Shown here in pieces: positions 17,227 through 26,896 of a stretch of 28,454 nucleotides of DNA. The translations under genes were made by a program, and so were the position numbers. The stretch is from an uncultured Oscillospiraceae bacterium (GTDB lineage Bacteria > Bacillota > Clostridia > Oscillospirales > Acutalibacteraceae). The first letter of the stretch is position 1. Every line of letters starts with the position of its first letter. The stretch lies in assembly GCA_900546785.1 (NCBI GenBank), contig URED01000033.1, forward strand, positions 1 through 28,454, written 5' to 3'. Below the pieces are notes generated by a model. The model had not been told where the DNA came from. It saw only the letters and a program-made list of their open reading frames with translations, and did not search any database.

Positions 17227-17814
17227 ATGATGAATCTTATTTTAGAAGCACTGCTTAGTGCGGTTGCCGTTATGCTCTTTTATATTCTTTTAAGAGCCAT
17301 ATACTGTATATCAAATAAAGCCGAATTCCATATCAGGCAGGAGATCCTGCCGTGCCTTTTTTCACTGTATATCGGCATGCTTGTATTCCTGTTGCTAACA
17401 AAAAATATGCACTTCTATTTTGAAAATATAGAAGGCGCCATGTTTCTTCGTATATTTATAGGCAGCAGCATATCAAGAAATTTAAATCTTGAGCCGTTTA
17501 AAACAATTCTGCAGCAGCTTGGCGATCTGCGGCAGGGGAATATGCAGTTTTTACCGTTGCTGAATCTGCTCGTTAATCTTATTCTATTTGCGCCTATGCC
17601 TATATTTATAAAACTGTCAAATCGAAAAATCGGCAGTATTGCGGCCGTGTTTATAACTTTCCTCAGCATTGTTTTGGTGGAAACAATACAGTATTTTACA
17701 GGGCGCGCAGCTGATATTGACGACGTTATACTCAATACAGTCGGCGCGATCCTCGCCGTGCTGATATTTGATTTTATAGTTAAAAAGCGTCTGTCCAAGA
17801 AGCGTACTTCTTAA
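17227..17814 (+). CDS. VanZ-family membrane protein
   Basis: The protein has four to five membrane segments and the VanZ signature: NLEPFKTI after the second segment, NLLVNLILFAPM, and the C-terminal VETIQYFTGRAADIDDVILNTVG. VanZ proteins are linked to low-level teicoplanin and lipoglycopeptide resistance, but most family members have no proven role. The start at 17227 is preferred because GTGAGG lies 6 nt upstream; a GTG at 17215 would add four residues. It is the last gene of a run that begins with the ECF sigma factor and is followed by a terminator. Envelope function fits that context. Confidence 0.88.
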   Translation: MMNLILEALLSAVAVMLFYILLRAIYCISNKAEFHIRQEILPCLFSLYIGMLVFLLLTKNMHFYFENIEGAMFLRIFIGSSISRNLNLEPFKTILQQLGDLRQGNMQFLPLLNLLVNLILFAPMPIFIKLSNRKIGSIAAVFITFLSIVLVETIQYFTGRAADIDDVILNTVGAILAVLIFDFIVKKRLSKKRTS

Positions 17815-17825
17815 AAAGACTTGTT

Positions 17826-17853
17826 CCGGTGGTTTGATGCCGCCGGTTTTTTT
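17826..17853 (+). terminator. Rho-independent terminator after the VanZ-like gene
   Basis: The 7-bp stem CCGGTGG/CCGCCGG (one wobble pair) with a 7-nt loop is followed by seven T, starting 11 nt after the stop codon. Confidence 0.85.
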
Positions 17854-17892
17854 GTTGTAATTTGCAAAAACATATGTTGTTTTTATATTGAA

Positions 17893-18117
17893 AGTACATA
17901 TCAGGCGTTTGCAGAAACCCTGCAGCAGGAAATGTCTGTATACGAAAGGATAACGCAGCGCGGCGTAAACGACGAGGAGAGCGGCAGCCTTTCGTGGGAT
18001 GCAGGCGATCTTTCACTTTATACTTTCTATGAGCGCACGGGTTCGCTGGGCAGCAGTAATCTTTACAATGTATATGCTTGTGCAGAGTGGCACAATTGGG
18101 AATCAATGCCGACTTAA
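17893..18117 (+). pseudogene. 3' fragment of an unidentified gene
   Basis: From about 17893 to a TAA at 18117 the frame reads as plausible protein (TYQAFAETLQQEMSVYERI, ending CAEWHNWESMPT). Upstream the same frame runs into the terminator and has no start codon with a ribosome site. It looks like the C-terminal end of a gene whose beginning was deleted. The family is not recognised. Confidence 0.4.
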
Positions 18118-18122
18118 GCCGC

Positions 18123-18287
18123 ATGGAAGATCAGATGCAAATAACGAGCGGAACATACAGCCTCATTTTGCTTGTCTGCGTTTTTGCTATTCTCGTTATT
18201 CTGTGCACATTTACAATCATTAAAAAGCATAGATCAAATCGAAGAAATAAAAGTAATAATGCAATTAATAATGAAACGGCAGTGTAA
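18123..18287 (+). CDS. 54-aa single-pass membrane protein
   Basis: This short frame has a polar N-terminus (MEDQMQITSGTYS), one strongly hydrophobic segment (about 14-32) and a basic tail (KKHRSNRRNK). That pattern is typical of small regulatory or accessory membrane proteins. No good ribosome site precedes the ATG, which lies 5 nt after the stop of the gene fragment, so it may have depended on coupling to that lost gene. The stop codon sits in the loop of the terminator that follows. Whether it is expressed is uncertain. Confidence 0.5.
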   Translation: MEDQMQITSGTYSLILLVCVFAILVILCTFTIIKKHRSNRRNKSNNAINNETAV

Positions 18288-18305
18288 AACACTGCCGCTT
18301 TTCTT
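18277..18305. terminator. Terminator between the small membrane protein and the 6S-like RNA
   Basis: The 8-bp stem CGGCAGTG/CACTGCCG with loop TAAAA is followed by CTTTTCTT on the plus strand and by TTTCATTATT on the minus strand. It can end the plus-strand transcript well, and the minus-strand RNA less well. Confidence 0.8.
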
Positions 18306-18489
18306 AAGAGAATCCGCACATCCGCCGGGGATTGAAGATAACCTGCTCTCTACGCAGGGTGGGTTTCATCCGCGCTGTTTTGTGCTCCCAGCTTCCGCAG
18401 AATGCGGGAGGTCTGCAAACCTGCAGCACGAGCGTGAATCCCTTTTTAAAACTTGTTCGGGTTATTTAAATCCCCGGTTGTCGAGATGC
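18306..18489 (-). ncRNA. ssrS: Candidate 6S RNA
   Basis: On the minus strand this stretch without a gene folds by eye into the 6S plan. A closing stem CCGGGGATT/AATCCCCGG (18477-18469 with 18333-18325) is followed by ATAACC/GGTTAT. Next is a large open bubble whose 3' strand carries a small hairpin (CTGC/GCAG). An apical arm is built from GGG-x-TTCA/TGAA-x-CCC, GTGCT/AGCAC and a terminal CCGC/GCGG hairpin. A TATACA -10-like element at 18501-18496 would start the RNA near 18489, and the terminator at 18305-18277 ends it. 6S RNA mimics an open promoter and binds the housekeeping RNA polymerase. The identification rests on fold and size, not on a database match. Confidence 0.5.
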
Positions 18490-18529
18490 ACAGACTGTAT
18501 ACATATTTTATATTTAACACGCTTGAATA

Positions 18530-18850
18530 TTATTGCTCGGTGTCGTCGTAATATTCAACGTCATATTGCTCTTCCACCATTTTCATAAGAATATCCGAAA
18601 CGCGGTTGAATTCATTTTCATCCTCTATCTCTTCAAGATATTCCTCGTCGCCGTCATTGATTACTTTCAGTATAATAACCTCATAATCGCCGTCAACGAT
18701 CTCTTCCTCATCGTCGCGGTATTCGGTTATGGCAACGTATACGCCGTTTTCATCTTCATATCTTTCAAGCAGCTCAAATAATATCTCTTCGCCGTTTTCA
18801 TCGGTAACGGAAATAATATCCGGCTCGTAAAGCTCTTTGTCATCTGCCAT
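18530..18850 (-). CDS. DUF1292 (YrzB-family) acidic protein
   Basis: The 106-residue, strongly acidic protein carries the DUF1292 pattern: DIISVTDENGEEILFELLERYE at the start, then a YVAITEY strand, an acidic loop, and EVIILKVINDGDEEYLEEIEDE. The family is widespread in Firmicutes; B. subtilis YrzB is a member, and no function is established. The ATG has AGGAGGG 8 nt upstream and a near-perfect promoter. It is a single-gene unit, divergent from the large RNA described below and upstream of the 6S-like RNA on the same strand. No signal peptide or membrane segment is present, so it is cytoplasmic. Confidence 0.88.
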   Translation of the reverse strand: MADDKELYEPDIISVTDENGEEILFELLERYEDENGVYVAITEYRDDEEEIVDGDYEVIILKVINDGDEEYLEEIEDENEFNRVSDILMKMVEEQYDVEYYDDTEQ

Positions 18851-18960: not shown

Positions 18961-18989
18961 TTGACAAATAACAAAAAGTATGATATTCT
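18961..18989 (+). promoter_or_regulatory. Promoter of the large structured RNA
   Basis: A perfect -35 TTGACA (18961-18966), a 17-nt spacer and TATTCT (18984-18989) predict transcription from about 18996. No credible start codon with a protein-sized frame follows for more than 900 nt. Confidence 0.75.
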
Positions 18990-18995
18990 TTAGAT

Positions 18996-19828
18996 GAACT
19001 TAAGAGGTGGCTGGTAAATCGCAGGGTTTCCGCTAAAGCCGCATGTGCATATAACTGAAAGCCAAATAAAGGTTTGGATTTATATGCTGAGCAGCCAGGC
19101 CAAACGGTACGGTGTGCGTCTTTATGGTAAATGTAGACCAAGGATAACCAAAAGCGAAATATAAGTAACCTAAGGGTGTTCGAAAAAGCAAAATGCCAAA
19201 TGCTGATAAGCTGTATTAAGCAATTTAACGAATTGTAAAATCAAAGTCTGGTAATACAGCAAAACAAAATTGATTTCATCGGGTGAAAGACGTTGAGATC
19301 TATATCGCACGGCAATGGCTAAATTGCAAACATCAGTCACAAAGTTCAACTGGATTTTATAGAAAAGGAGGCATTTGTCCAATGGATGTAGAACCTGTTC
19401 AGACAAACGCCTGCAAGGTGTCCGGGTAATATAACGGTGAATTGTATCGACAGAGTCTGCCGGAAGTAGTGGCAGAGGCGGATACGGGCTTTATGAAGTT
19501 TCTTAAGAAGTTATGGCAGGAAACCCAAAAAGGGCACTCAGGCGTCTAAAAAATTTAATTTTAAGATCATATATCTTTAAATGATTTGGCTTAGCCTGCA
19601 AAAGCCTGAAGAGTTATCTTCAAATAATTTCTTTAAATATAGTAAAGGAAATTAATCCAATGGGCTAGATTATTTTAAATCATACAATTTTTAATTGATT
19701 TTAAAGAGGTGGTTCCTATGTTAAGGAAATTCATCCGATTGATTAAATAATTATATGAGGTAAGTCCAATGTACAGTTAAATTGAATATTCAAGGCTCCC
19801 GATGCGAAAACGCATCGGGAGTTTTTTT
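18996..19828 (+). ncRNA. Large structured non-coding RNA, about 830 nt (ROOL/GOLLD/OLE-like candidate)
   Basis: A promoter and a perfect terminator bound about 830 nt with no protein gene on either strand. Complementary arms occur throughout: TGGCTG/CAGCCA (19008-19013 with 19092-19097) enclosing GCATATAA/TTATATGC (19047 with 19087) and CCAAA/TTTGG; GCTGTATTA/TAATACAGC (19210 with 19260) enclosing CAATT/AATTG; GTTGA/TCAAC enclosing GCAAT/ATTGC (19292-19350); GGCATTTGTC/GACAAACGCC (19370 with 19411, one mismatch); TCTGCC/GGCAGA (19456-19476); and ATGATTT/AAATCAT (19581 with 19683) enclosing AGCC/GGCT and GAAGA/TCTTC. Nested, multi-branched helices at this length are the mark of the giant ornate bacterial RNAs. 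I see no signature of RNase P, tmRNA, SRP RNA or a group II intron domain V. The family assignment is an inference. Confidence 0.7.
19796..19828 (+). terminator. Strong Rho-independent terminator of the large RNA
   Basis: An 11-bp perfect stem (CTCCCGATGCG/CGCATCGGGAG) with an AAAA loop is followed by seven T. Confidence 0.95.
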
Positions 19829-19837
19829 GCGTTTTTG

Positions 19838-19866
19838 TTGCTTTTGGTCTGTCAGTAATATATAAT
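19838..19866 (+). promoter_or_regulatory. Promoter of the uxaB-uxaA operon
   Basis: TTGCTT (19838-19843), a 17-nt spacer and a perfect TATAAT (19861-19866) lie 48 nt before the uxaB start. The leader contains GGGGTAAGTCCC, a small hairpin. Confidence 0.7.
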
Positions 19867-19914
19867 TGTAACGGGGTAAGTCCCAATTCTATAGAAATAT
19901 GCAGATTCTCGGTT

Positions 19915-21375
19915 ATGAAAAAGATTATAGATTTAGATATTGATGATTATTCCGCTCTGCCCGTAAAGGTTTTGCAGTTCGGAGAAGGCAATTTTCTGCG
20001 TGCGTTTGCAGATTACATGATTCAAAAAATGAATGAAAACGGAATTTTTAATGCAAGCGTGGCTATGGTCAAGCCTACTGCAAGTGCGGCACGCCATGAT
20101 TTTCATGCGCAGAATTGCCGCTATACCGTGCTGGAACGCGGCCTGGAAAACGGCAGGAAGATCGATAAAGCAACGGTCATTACAAGTGTTTCCGAATATC
20201 TGAGCGCGTATGACGATGCGCATCAGCTGCTCAGCCTTGCCGCGTCAAATGAATTGCAGGTTGTTATTTCAAATACCACGGAGGCGGGTATCGTTTATGT
20301 TAAAGGGGAAAGTTTTGATGATTTTCCCAAGGTTTCCTATCCTGCTAAGCTTTGCCGCCTGCTTTATGAACGCTATAAAATCCTCGGCAAAGGCAGCGGA
20401 CTGCTGATCCTCCCCGTTGAGCTGATAGAAAATAACGGAACTGCACTGAAAAACTGCATTCTTGCCTATGCTGCGGATTGGAATTTGGGTGCCGGTTTTG
20501 AGGATTATATAAAGTATGACTGCAAATTCTGTTCAACATTGGTGGATCGGATCGTGACCGGCTTCCCTGCAAAGGACGCAGAGCAGATATTTTCAAAGCT
20601 CGGGTTTACGGATGATCTTGCCGTTGCCTGCGAGCCTTATATTTCCTGGATCATAGAGGGCAGGGAGGAATGGAAACGGATCTTTCCTGCCGATAAGATT
20701 TTCAGCACCGTTAAATGGGTCGATGATTGTGCGCTTTACAGAGAACGCAAGGTAAAGATCTTGAACGGTGCGCACACACTTTCCGTCCTTGCCGGTCATC
20801 TCTGCGGTTTCAGTATTGTGCGCGATATGGTCAGCGATCCTGATTTTAACGCGCTTCTGAATCGTGCAATAGATAATGAGATCATTCCTACGATCGATAT
20901 GGATAAAACAGAGCTTGCGGCATTTAAAAACAGCGTTTTGGAGCGTTTTATGAATCCGTTTATAGATCATAAGCTGCTGGATATATCGCTCAACAGCGTG
21001 TCAAAATTTACTGCGCGCTGTCTTCCGTCCGTTATTCAGTATTCGCAAAAATTCGGTTCCGCTCCGCCGCTTTTGTCTTTTTCATTTGCCGCGCTGATCA
21101 AATTCTATAACGGTTCATTTGATGAAAATGGTGATTTCGTTTCAAATGCACACGGCAAAGATTATGTGATTCGGGATTCGGCGGATAATCTCAAGGCTTT
21201 TGAGGCTGCGTTTAAGACCAATGACCCTGTTTTGCATATTATGAAAAATATATCGCTTTGGGGTTCTGATCTTACCGATATCAAAGGCTTTTATGAAAAA
21301 GTTTCAGACTGTTTTGCGGATATCTGCACAAGCGGCGTGCGCTTAGCGCTCAGAAAGGCATTGGGCAATGAATAA
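19915..21375 (+). CDS. uxaB: Tagaturonate reductase (altronate oxidoreductase)
   Basis: The 486-residue enzyme belongs to the mannitol dehydrogenase superfamily and reduces D-tagaturonate to D-altronate with NADH, a cytoplasmic step of galacturonate breakdown. The length matches E. coli UxaB (about 480). Visible marks are the N-terminal FGEGNFLRAF (about 22-31), SNTTEAGI (about 119-126) and the C-domain catalytic block RKVKILNGAHT (about 279-289) with the family lysine. The ATG has no good ribosome site, which is unusual in this window. The stop overlaps the uxaA start by 8 nt, giving a coupled two-gene operon. The isomerase UxaC and a uronate transporter must be encoded elsewhere. Confidence 0.93.
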   Translation: MKKIIDLDIDDYSALPVKVLQFGEGNFLRAFADYMIQKMNENGIFNASVAMVKPTASAARHDFHAQNCRYTVLERGLENGRKIDKATVITSVSEYLSAYDDAHQLLSLAASNELQVVISNTTEAGIVYVKGESFDDFPKVSYPAKLCRLLYERYKILGKGSGLLILPVELIENNGTALKNCILAYAADWNLGAGFEDYIKYDCKFCSTLVDRIVTGFPAKDAEQIFSKLGFTDDLAVACEPYISWIIEGREEWKRIFPADKIFSTVKWVDDCALYRERKVKILNGAHTLSVLAGHLCGFSIVRDMVSDPDFNALLNRAIDNEIIPTIDMDKTELAAFKNSVLERFMNPFIDHKLLDISLNSVSKFTARCLPSVIQYSQKFGSAPPLLSFSFAALIKFYNGSFDENGDFVSNAHGKDYVIRDSADNLKAFEAAFKTNDPVLHIMKNISLWGSDLTDIKGFYEKVSDCFADICTSGVRLALRKALGNE

Positions 21376-22885: not shown

Positions 22886-23117
22886 AATATATAACGGCTG
22901 GGAAAAAGAGGAGTATTTTTCCGCTTGCTTTCAGAGAGCAGCCGGCAGGTGCAAGGCTGTAAGCAATGAAAAAGAAGGTAGCTTTTGAGCCGGCGGGGTG
23001 AAACCGAGTAGCCTCGTCCGTTTTTCCGCGTTAAGGAAAAGAGCGGCGCTTTTAGCGCAATTTGAGTGGTACCGCGGAATGTTGCTTTCGTCTCATCTTG
23101 GGGCGAAAGCTTTTTTG
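22886..23117 (+). promoter_or_regulatory. T-box riboswitch (valine specifier) controlling valS
   Basis: Stem I begins with AGAGGAGTA (near 22908) and carries CAGAGAG (22932-22938). The specifier region GAAGGTAGC contains GTA (22978-22980), a valine codon, agreeing with the valS gene downstream. The T-box proper, GAGTGGTACCGCGG (23064-23077), pairs with the free CCA end of uncharged tRNA-Val. The terminator GCTTTCG/CGAAAGC with six T follows (23084-23116). Uncharged tRNA-Val stabilises the antiterminator and lets valS be transcribed. Confidence 0.95.
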
Positions 23118-25795: not shown

Positions 25796-26896
25796 ATGGA
25801 TATTGAATCGGCAATAAAGTTAATGGAAAAAAAGCAGAGCCTCGGCGTCAAGCCGGGGCTTTCAAGCGTAAGCAAACTGCTTGCAAAAATGGGCGATCCG
25901 CAGGAAAAATTGAAGATCATACATATCGCCGGCACAAACGGCAAAGGTACGGTTGCCAATATCATTGCAGCCGCTCTGTGTGCCTGCGGTTTTAAGGTAG
26001 GTCTTTTTACTTCGCCTTGGGTCGTTGATTACAGGGAGCAGATACAGATCAACGGCAACTATATCCCAAAGGATAAATTTGCAGCTTACGTTTCTGCGTA
26101 CGCTGATGAAAATGTAACGGAATTCGAACTGCTTACTGCAATCATGTATCAATATTTTGCAGATGAACAGGTTGATTATGCTGTGGTTGAATGCGGCATG
26201 GGCGGCGCGCTGGATGCTACCAATGCCTTTGCACGCCCAAAACTAGCCGTTATAACATCCGTTTCCATGGATCATACTGCGTTTCTCGGCAATACACTCA
26301 ATGAGATTGCAGAGCAGAAAGCGGGAATCATAAAGGAAAACTGCGTGTGCATCCTTTATCCGAATCCCCGCTGTGAATCTGTGTTTGAAGAGAGATGTGC
26401 TAAAACAAACAGTACCCTTATAAAGGTGCCGAACCGCAATGATTTTAAAAAGAATAATTTGGCCGTTGCCCGTGAATGCGTTGCCTATCTGCATCTGTGC
26501 GCGCATATTGAGTATCCGTCTCTTCCGGCAAGGCAGGAGAATTTCGGGCGAGTTATGCTGGACGGCGCGCATAATATAAACGGCGCGTTTGCTCTTTTGC
26601 AAGCCTTTCCTTTTGAGCATATAACCGCTGTTATCTCAATGATGGCGGATAAGGATTGTGACGGGTATTTAAAATTGATCGCACCGCGCTGCCGAAAGAT
26701 CATTGCAACCGAAACGCCGAATCCGCGCACCCTACCCGCTGAAAATCTTGCAGAGATTGCGGGCAGGTACTGTAATCATGTTCGTGCGGAAAAGGATCCG
26801 CATAAAGCGCTTCAGCTTGCAAAAGCCGAAAATATGTTTACCCTTGTATGCGGTTCGTTTTTTCTTGCAAGAGAAATCAGAAAAGATTTGATTTAA
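25796..26896 (+). CDS. folC: Folylpolyglutamate synthase / dihydrofolate synthase, short form
   Basis: This Mur-ligase-fold enzyme adds glutamate to folates (and possibly to dihydropteroate). Conserved marks are the P-loop HIAGTNGKGTVAN (about 42-54), LFTSPWVVDYREQI, VVECGMGGALDATN, SMDHTAFLGNT, QKAGIIK and the C-domain entry MLDGAHNING. At 366 residues it is shorter than the usual 420-440. The missing part lies between the central domain and LPARQENFG, where most homologues have a longer linker and a PGR motif; here the equivalent is PARQENFG. It starts 4 nt after valS with no ribosome site of its own, so it depends on coupling, and ends at a strong terminator. Confidence 0.9.
   Translation: MDIESAIKLMEKKQSLGVKPGLSSVSKLLAKMGDPQEKLKIIHIAGTNGKGTVANIIAAALCACGFKVGLFTSPWVVDYREQIQINGNYIPKDKFAAYVSAYADENVTEFELLTAIMYQYFADEQVDYAVVECGMGGALDATNAFARPKLAVITSVSMDHTAFLGNTLNEIAEQKAGIIKENCVCILYPNPRCESVFEERCAKTNSTLIKVPNRNDFKKNNLAVARECVAYLHLCAHIEYPSLPARQENFGRVMLDGAHNINGAFALLQAFPFEHITAVISMMADKDCDGYLKLIAPRCRKIIATETPNPRTLPAENLAEIAGRYCNHVRAEKDPHKALQLAKAENMFTLVCGSFFLAREIRKDLI

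Follow-up and report, generated by a model that had tools for sequence, protein, structure and literature searches.

In bacteria, proteins are known to silence ribosomes, and 6S RNA (ssrS, RF00013) silences RNA polymerase, which it binds by imitating a promoter. The two-codon minigene, of which lambda bar is an example, consists of a Shine-Dalgarno sequence, an AUG, one sense codon and a stop codon. Sponges of the CsrB/RsmZ type have several copies of a short motif, a GGA hairpin for CsrA, and the number of copies varies between species; dual-function RNAs of the RNAIII/SR1 type run to hundreds of nucleotides with a short ORF, encode a defined peptide and pair with targets. ROOL, GOLLD and OLE are large structured RNAs devoid of a long ORF. 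Two-codon minigenes of the same composition are described for axe-txe (mg2) and for the B. subtilis ycbK leader, where they stand singly or in pairs in the leaders or coding regions of other genes (PMC8708949).

The locus described here shares something with each of these systems and departs from each. Comparison across a genus shows a unit with the apparent layout of an autonomous RNA gene, kept at one locus, with a covarying core and two to five detected Shine-Dalgarno sites with a start codon per RNA. In contrast to the two-codon minigenes, these sites form an array within a structured, separately transcribed-looking unit that is kept across a genus. The repeated motif is an extended Shine-Dalgarno sequence with AUG and stop rather than a GGA hairpin; unlike in RNAIII and SR1, peptide conservation was not detected and the motifs are purine-rich; and ribosome-binding-site modules set the RNA apart from ROOL, GOLLD and OLE. 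The gene for 6S RNA belongs to the same syntenic block, with a single gene in between, and the proposed logic of the two RNAs is alike, namely mimicry of the nucleic-acid substrate of a core machine, although the target would be the ribosome instead of RNA polymerase. The reading to which we incline, with more doubt than conviction, is that the RNA is an array of mRNA-start mimics that would engage 30S subunits, acting as a decoy or reservoir for ribosomes and so as the counterpart of 6S RNA on the translation side. No like class appeared among the matches listed in literature searches on tandem minigenes, start-stop elements, sponges for 30S subunits and ribosome decoys akin to 6S, as judged from titles and abstract openings.

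The unit lies on the plus strand of the window, by which is meant the whole analysed stretch of 28,454 nucleotides. Its boundaries, its first arm and its upstream neighbours are as follows.

18307..18499, minus strand: 6S RNA gene (ssrS), beyond the DUF1292 gene; RF00013 at E 6.6e-07 and 40.1 bits, below the gathering score of 46.4
18530..18850, minus strand: DUF1292 protein gene, divergent neighbour of the RNA; PF06949 at E 2.2e-13
18961..18989, plus strand: predicted promoter TTGACA-17-TATTCT from a sequence scan, with TG preceding the -10
18996..19001, plus strand: 5' strand of helix P1, GAACTT, at the inferred RNA start; partner at 19342-19347
19002..19341, plus strand: expanded arm of P1, window lineage only
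19792..19828, plus strand: intrinsic terminator, a perfect 11-bp core that extends to 15 pairs

The original prediction had read this stretch as a large structured RNA with a TTGACA/17/TATTCT promoter, a perfect 11-bp terminator, no protein gene and at least ten complementary arms. Both boundary signals are present, and both recur among relatives. Of 32 sequences (the window and its 31 homologues), 30 have the form TTGACN-N17-TANNNT at this position, L078 and L093 having been left out of the scoring because their extracted pieces start within the -35 box, and a terminator-like hairpin is the 3' end of all 32 extracted sequences, with the script overrunning the expected place for L079, L084 and perhaps L093. 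The absence of a protein gene holds to the extent that the longest ORF within 18996-19828 has at most 78 aa, that the five ORFs examined there have no Pfam match and that the longest spurious ORF of the unit found no match in a protein database search; it has to be qualified by four short ORFs with Shine-Dalgarno sequences. Gene callers would probably overlook the unit. The complementary arms were weak as first claimed. The single sequence without its terminator folds with z = -2.14 on the plus strand and -2.05 on the minus strand (40 shuffles), and by our estimate chance alone would give about five perfect complementary pairs of 8 nt in 833 nt; only an alignment of homologues tells real helices from random ones. 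Structure is unconvincing when judged from the window sequence by itself, and z-scores and repeat lists were dropped as helix evidence because real and chance helices are inseparable by them; some helices of the repeat lists were later backed by covariation. For helices of the expanded arm, three homologues were available for comparison.

The best proteins related to uxaB, the gene downstream, are 71% identical, the best among 398 sampled genomes 43%, and uxaB is of limited use for placing the window. Similarity of valS led to the genus of the window (G754 at 86%), in which 47 of 80 genomes gave a match to a DNA search at E <= 0.01, the weakest of these matches being short and possibly due to chance; the other 33 genomes gave no match at this threshold, which does not imply absence of the RNA. 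One of the 47, G839, has a valS 97% identical to that of the window over 350 aa. The homologue set comprises 31 of the 47 genomes, 30 with loci returned plus G754. L078, which contains a run of N, was dropped from alignment A3, the long-range-helix count and the mini-ORF count, leaving 31 sequences (30 homologues plus the window); L067, L076, L078 and L084 were dropped from alignment A4, and L070, L087 and L088 from the ORF1 codon block. DNA searches of 24, 37, 398, 197 and 4 genomes of other groups yielded no credible match, the longest being 67 nt, and seven loci of the 398-genome search and one (L046) of the 197-genome search were rejected by eye as coding or terminator matches. Phages and plasmids gave no relatives by blastn. 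Two pattern searches of viral contigs were without matches; an unspecific pattern matched at least 120 times and another in three contigs, and the RNA cores aligned to none of these loci.

It is clear from these relatives that the window carries an unusually long member. The usual RNA length is 455-592 nt (25 sequences, a range that excludes the four-member window clade and L079, L084 and L093, where the terminator search ran long), and that of the window is 833 nt, of which about 340 (19002-19341) are an enlargement of one hairpin arm. For 27 of 32 sequences an exact partner of 5-6 nt was found for the 5' strand of P1, the pairing being either GAACUU/AAGUUC or GAACAA/UUGUUC. The long form of P1 occurs in 4 of 32, the window and L067, L068 and L069, the three relatives that align to the RNA of the window end to end; most other relatives align from the promoter to about 19010 and resume at about 19357, skipping about 345 nt. 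The distance from the RNA start to the ORF1 Shine-Dalgarno sequence is 35-104 nt in 28 of 32 sequences and 367 nt in the window. On this comparison the 833 nt stem from an apparent lineage-specific expansion of a 5' hairpin arm, which reverses the earlier idea of a roughly 560-nt class with a 3' extension: the class is about 455-590 nt, and the addition lies in the 5' arm. The expanded arm shows local hairpins and the pair UAUGG/CCUAAG, which resembles an 11-nt tetraloop receptor.

Size and the absence of a long ORF are what a known giant class (ROOL, GOLLD or OLE, as originally suggested) or a circularly permuted group II intron would show, and for the latter GUGUG at 19112-19116 and UAUGG/CCUAAG in the expanded arm were noted by eye. 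Rfam 15 has no family at gathering score within 18996-19828. At E up to 10 there are eight weak matches, seven of them at the terminator and none to ROOL, GOLLD, OLE or a group II family, and a scan of 19 of the 31 homologue loci gave only the T-box and 6S; the RNA itself has no RF00013 match, 6S being a separate neighbouring gene. The intron was rejected after comparison with pTT8 and seven Thermus plasmids: the alignment score to the pTT8 copy is 89 against a shuffle mean of 90.5, and inspection of the window by eye did not reveal the D5 segment conserved in Thermus. Among the group II features considered (D5 with AGC triad and tetraloop, D6 near the 5' end, AY, GUGYG), no such D5 was seen by eye in 18996-19120 and GUGUG was the only one found, and the region of resemblance (19003-19180) falls within the lineage-specific arm. 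No AcpG-like ORF was noticed on reading the window's ORF list; in PMC8637638, acpG is described as frequently near circularly permuted group II intron RNA and as sometimes absent. At the sensitivity of these comparisons, a giant class or such an intron is extremely improbable.

The helices and short ORFs that can be followed across the homologues lie downstream of the expanded arm.

19364..19371, plus strand: ORF1 Shine-Dalgarno sequence AAAGGAGG, followed by UCC at 19378-19380
19374-19379 / 19402-19407, plus strand: ORF1 hairpin UUUGUC/GACAAA, with the ORF1 start codon in its loop
19382..19429, plus strand: ORF1, a Shine-Dalgarno ORF of 15 codons plus stop (MDVEPVQTNACKVSG)
19407..19413, plus strand: 5' strand ACGCCUG of the 7-bp long-range helix P_LR
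19444-19448 / 19481-19485, plus strand: covarying core helix GUAUC/GAUAC with an inner hairpin
19539..19545, plus strand: 3' strand CAGGCGU of the 7-bp P_LR
19660..19668, plus strand: ORF2, two codons, AUG-GGC-UAG; Shine-Dalgarno AAAGGA at 19644-19649, UCC at 19656-19658
19718..19750, plus strand: ORF3, 10 codons (MLRKFIRLIK); Shine-Dalgarno AAGAGGTGG at 19704-19712
19769..19780, plus strand: ORF4, AUG-UAC-AGU-UAA; Shine-Dalgarno GAGGT at 19757-19761, UCC at 19765-19767

RNAalifold on 31 sequences (30 homologues plus the window) gave 10 pairs, 9 of them with double changes. Alignment A3, with the ORF1 hairpin added, has 16 pairs, 93.5% of cells paired and 12 pairs with double changes, and its covariation score is 0.508 against 0.205 +/- 0.017 in shuffles. 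None of 500 shuffles reaches A3 on four of five measures and 3 reach it on the fifth, the number of pair types; because the sequences are kin, these counts are not probabilities. Slid versions of the A3 helices are 31.7-42.3% paired. In the ORF1 hairpin (helices 1-2) 94.4% and 95.2% of cells are paired, with double changes at 3 of 6 pairs, and in core helices 3-4 98.1% and 87.2%, with double changes at 9 of 10 pairs; invariant stretches of the core include AGUUAU and CAG. P_LR is paired along its full 7 bp in 26 of 31 sequences, and 6 of its 7 positions show compensatory pair types; its partner was picked as the best complement, which in two sequences sits at another distance. Collecting homologues and examining their helices, the course proposed with the original prediction, supports an independent, large structured RNA: compensation is clear, and conservation of the codon type, which would have spoken against the prediction, was not detected. 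By these compensatory changes the candidate is a structured RNA class, and, taken with the Rfam result, a conserved one outside Rfam 15, which agrees with the new class that had been listed among the original options.

Two points were absent from that prediction, the linkage to 6S and DUF1292 and a series of ribosome-binding sites in which a stop follows the start almost directly. ORF1, with its Shine-Dalgarno sequence and 15-19 aa, is at the same place in 31 of 31 homologues and ends in TAA, TAG or TGA; ORF3, about 10 codons with ATG or TTG as start, was found in 20 of 32 sequences and not found in 12, a gap that counts against the decoy. Both are longer than the remaining sites, in which a Shine-Dalgarno sequence, usually a UCC or ACC, and a start codon are followed by a stop within 2-6 codons. 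Shine-Dalgarno ORFs of at most 6 codons in the 3' region number 63 in 31 sequences (30 homologues plus the window; one, in L073, lies inside ORF3), which is 2.03 per RNA; Markov controls give 0.21, and the highest of 200 reaches 0.58. AUG-X-stop units account for 45, or 1.45 per RNA against 0.04 in controls (highest 0.19), and 29 of 31 sequences have at least one, with the sequence make-up of a two-codon minigene. In 18 cases the third codon is a sense codon, and in 12 of these a stop follows at codon 4, one of the 12 (L073) again inside ORF3. Just before the AUG stands UCC in 52 of the 63, and their stops are TAA in 50, TAG in 10 and TGA in 3. The sense codon X is NNC in 42 of 45 units, a regularity that we count against the decoy. 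Copy number varies, with 1-4 mini units detected per RNA, and most modules sit in the AT-rich 3' half. In L092 (1001-1578) a mini-ORF module of about 56 nt, bearing an MF unit in each copy, is tandemly duplicated, which shows one route to a change in copy number.

A polycistronic micro-mRNA whose products are the peptides of ORF1 (15-19 aa) and ORF3 (10 aa) was favoured at first, on the strength of open frames, ORF1 being open behind a Shine-Dalgarno sequence throughout the homologues, swaps among stop codons and between ATG and TTG starts in ORF3, and 3-nt insertions. It was weakened by a codon test. The synonymous fraction of ORF1 is 0.180 against a column-shuffle null of 0.166 (P 0.40; 24 distinct rows, 12 codons, low power) and that of ORF3 0.156 against 0.140 (P 0.35; 17 distinct rows, 9 codons, low power), and since the ORFs in this test were chosen as open, their lack of in-frame stops is partly built in. 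As amino-acid conservation is not above the null, the evidence favours sites and stops rather than peptides; two-codon ORFs, in which X varies, could hardly encode a meaningful product. We regard peptides as quite unlikely to be the point of the RNA, which we infer to act through contact with the small subunit. The same units raise the question of a toxic minigene RNA like lambda bar, which under some condition would cause peptidyl-tRNA drop-off and deplete a tRNA. Two codons, a strong Shine-Dalgarno sequence and a prevalence of UAA are features linked to toxicity in PMC8708949, where mini-ORFs are said to recruit ribosomes and to be potentially toxic. Set against this are the housekeeping locus and the near-consensus promoter, hard to square with a toxin, as well as an X that is not one fixed codon and mini sites that are mostly not especially strong, and this explanation is very improbable.

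The strength of the sites was gauged against an assumed 3' tail of 16S rRNA, of which AAGGAGGUGAUCC is the complement; the tail of these genomes may differ, a point against the decoy. The sites combine an AGGAGG/GAGGU part with UCC, and UCC or ACC could extend the modelled pairing with the tail. Predicted duplex energies average -16.9 kcal/mol for ORF1 (32 sites), -15.2 for ORF3 (20) and -11.4 for the mini sites (62), all chosen regardless of UCC, against -9.1 +/- 3.0 kcal/mol for the gene starts that a simple script predicts in G829 (236); 2.7%, 2.5% and 24.9% of these genes, respectively, bind as well. In the window the ORF2 site is weak (-10.0 kcal/mol, with 37% of genes binding as well), and the corresponding share for ORF4 is 19%. 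The mini sites are only modestly above gene starts, which weighs against the decoy, so that the term over-strong suits ORF1 and ORF3 alone. Each RNA has on average 3.3 duplex peaks of -11 kcal/mol or lower (32 RNAs, range 1-5), and a 500-nt segment of the genome has 0.45 (150 segments, highest 3). A search of 360 kb of G829, apart from the chunk that contains the RNA, gave 0 copies of the full module of Shine-Dalgarno sequence, UCC and AUG-X-stop, and TCCNATG stands at 0 of the 236 predicted gene starts. Elsewhere in G829 plain Shine-Dalgarno-AUG-X-stop without UCC occurs 6 and 5 times against 8-10 expected per strand, which counts against the decoy.

These last figures bear also on the idea that the repeated motif sponges another partner, either CU-rich small RNAs that would pair with AGGAGG or an RNA-binding protein after the manner of CsrB and CsrA. 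In its favour, UCC before the AUG is no general feature of start sites in G829, and the mini sites have only modest pairing with the 16S tail and vary in copy number (the L092 duplication included). Copies that keep the flanking motif and lack an AUG, met in a genome outside the genus (G658), point the same way. With X so regularly NNC, the start and stop could belong to an RNA- or protein-binding motif that ribosomes do not read, a point to be held against the decoy. The spacing of the AUG and the in-frame stops, with the stop moving to codon 4 in most cases in which codon 3 is sense, suit ribosomes, and no candidate protein or small RNA was identified; a sponge of this kind is unlikely.

The neighbourhood is stable upstream and variable downstream. 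Of the 31 homologue loci, 28 have DUF1292 upstream in divergent orientation, and in the other three (L074, L084, L091) less than 140 nt of contig precedes the RNA. Beyond DUF1292, a 6S at or above the gathering score is present in 6 of the 19 homologue loci that were scanned, as well as in L240 and L330, and the below-threshold call in the window is supported by synteny with the above-threshold 6S of relatives. Between the 6S gene and a VanZ-family gene, at window 17800-18300, are short, broken-looking ORF remnants. Downstream in the window is uxaB, named from homologues and beginning at 19915, and the core-gene setting between DUF1292 and uxaB described originally is supported. Among the 31 homologues, surveyed to about 1.5 kb except in L060, the downstream gene is uxaB in 11, valS without uxaB in 7 and uxaA in L067, with 12 not identified; L060, one of the 11, has valS further on. 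Since the downstream gene varies while the RNA stays, the RNA does not belong to any single gene as its leader. Its position ahead of uxaB on the same strand, with a terminator at its end, would suggest a long leader or attenuator; besides the lack of a fixed linkage, uxaB has a plausible promoter of its own past that terminator and valS its own T-box leader (window 22891-23098, 132.9 bits), and a leader is highly improbable. The uxaB promoter, TTGCTT-17-TATAAT at 19838-19866, was seen by eye; its first hexamer has 3 of 6 matches, and the scan did not list it. The string GGTAAGTCC occurs at the ORF4 site (19759-19767) and again at 19875-19883 just upstream of uxaB, there without a start codon. 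Elsewhere in the window, a partial YD/RHS-repeat-like protein at 2-1192 is cut by the window edge (by eye, from the ORF list), and a folC-like ORF of 366 aa at 25796-26896 has longer gapped alignments to relatives, possibly reflecting an internal deletion.

Two loci outside the 80 genus genomes, in G459 and G658 (valS 71% and 72%), extend the comparison; each is a single locus inspected by eye once synteny had been found, and no significance is attached to them. The search covered 1.546 of about 1.9 Mb of G459 and 0.366 Mb of G658. Neither the covariance model nor BLAST matched in the 1.546 Mb of G459, and in the loci searched the covariance model R1 had no match outside the genus apart from one at E 0.8 inside G829. 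As synteny revealed a counterpart in G459 that R1 had missed, R1 stops at the genus and its silence says little. In G459 a motif scan pointed to the DUF1292 locus, where a unit divergent from DUF1292, with 6S beyond, has TTGACA-17-TATAAT, an ORF of 22 codons behind a Shine-Dalgarno sequence, an ORF of two codons (ME), a final MYRE ORF and two further short ORFs. Its ORF1 gives the sole clear duplex peak (-16.0), with a second at -11.5 inside ORF1 and two weaker later sites, and no terminator was seen by eye in 861 bases; both observations count against the decoy. ORF1 of G459 has only a short EEP stretch in common, a further point against peptides. The G658 unit, about 290 nt beside DUF1292 and 6S, has TTGACA-17-TATAAT, a terminator-like hairpin and five Shine-Dalgarno sites, three of them with GGTGAGTCC; three sites have an AUG (MYT, a 15-codon ORF, MYS), and two have none, which is likewise counted against the decoy. 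No counterpart of the core was noticed in it by eye. It seems that the layout persists after the sequence has diverged, and that the Shine-Dalgarno part is kept longer than the AUG.

These units matter for a further explanation, in which ribosomes are parked in cis: the mini-ORFs would serve only to retain ribosomes that shield the RNA from RNases, so that the structured core, which would do another job, survives. It draws on a precedent, ribosome-bound mini-ORFs that protect transcripts, reported for axe-txe and EHEC LEE4 in PMC8708949, which also cites strong Shine-Dalgarno sites that re-initiate in place, and it would suit the concentration of modules in the AT-rich 3' half and a core with invariant AGUUAU and CAG. 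In G658, however, Shine-Dalgarno sites persist in a unit of about 290 nt with no visible core, so that the sites seem to outlive the core, and two of these sites have no start codon. We consider it a rather unlikely explanation, though a serious one.

Under the favoured reading as a ribosome decoy or reservoir, the RNA would imitate several mRNA start sites at once and would hold 30S subunits, or else ribosomes that begin translation, terminate immediately and restart in place, much as 6S RNA holds RNA polymerase. The immediate stops would keep ribosomes from traversing and unfolding the core. As the ORF1 start codon lies in a covarying loop and the ORF1 coding stretch supplies a strand of P_LR, there may be a coupling between how the core folds and whether the first site is occupied. 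A broader proposal is that a single locus, kept beside 6S and DUF1292 in the genus and in at least two genomes outside it, encodes decoys for RNA polymerase and for the ribosome, with over-strong sites at ORF1 and ORF3; this we regard as possible, though doubtful. The linkage to 6S makes the decoy idea directly testable.

Even under another mechanism, the locus adds a covarying RNA class, absent from Rfam 15, that preserves its start and stop codons with no detected selection on the peptides. If the favoured reading is true, an RNA that silences 30S subunits by mimicking mRNA starts would be a new kind of regulator.
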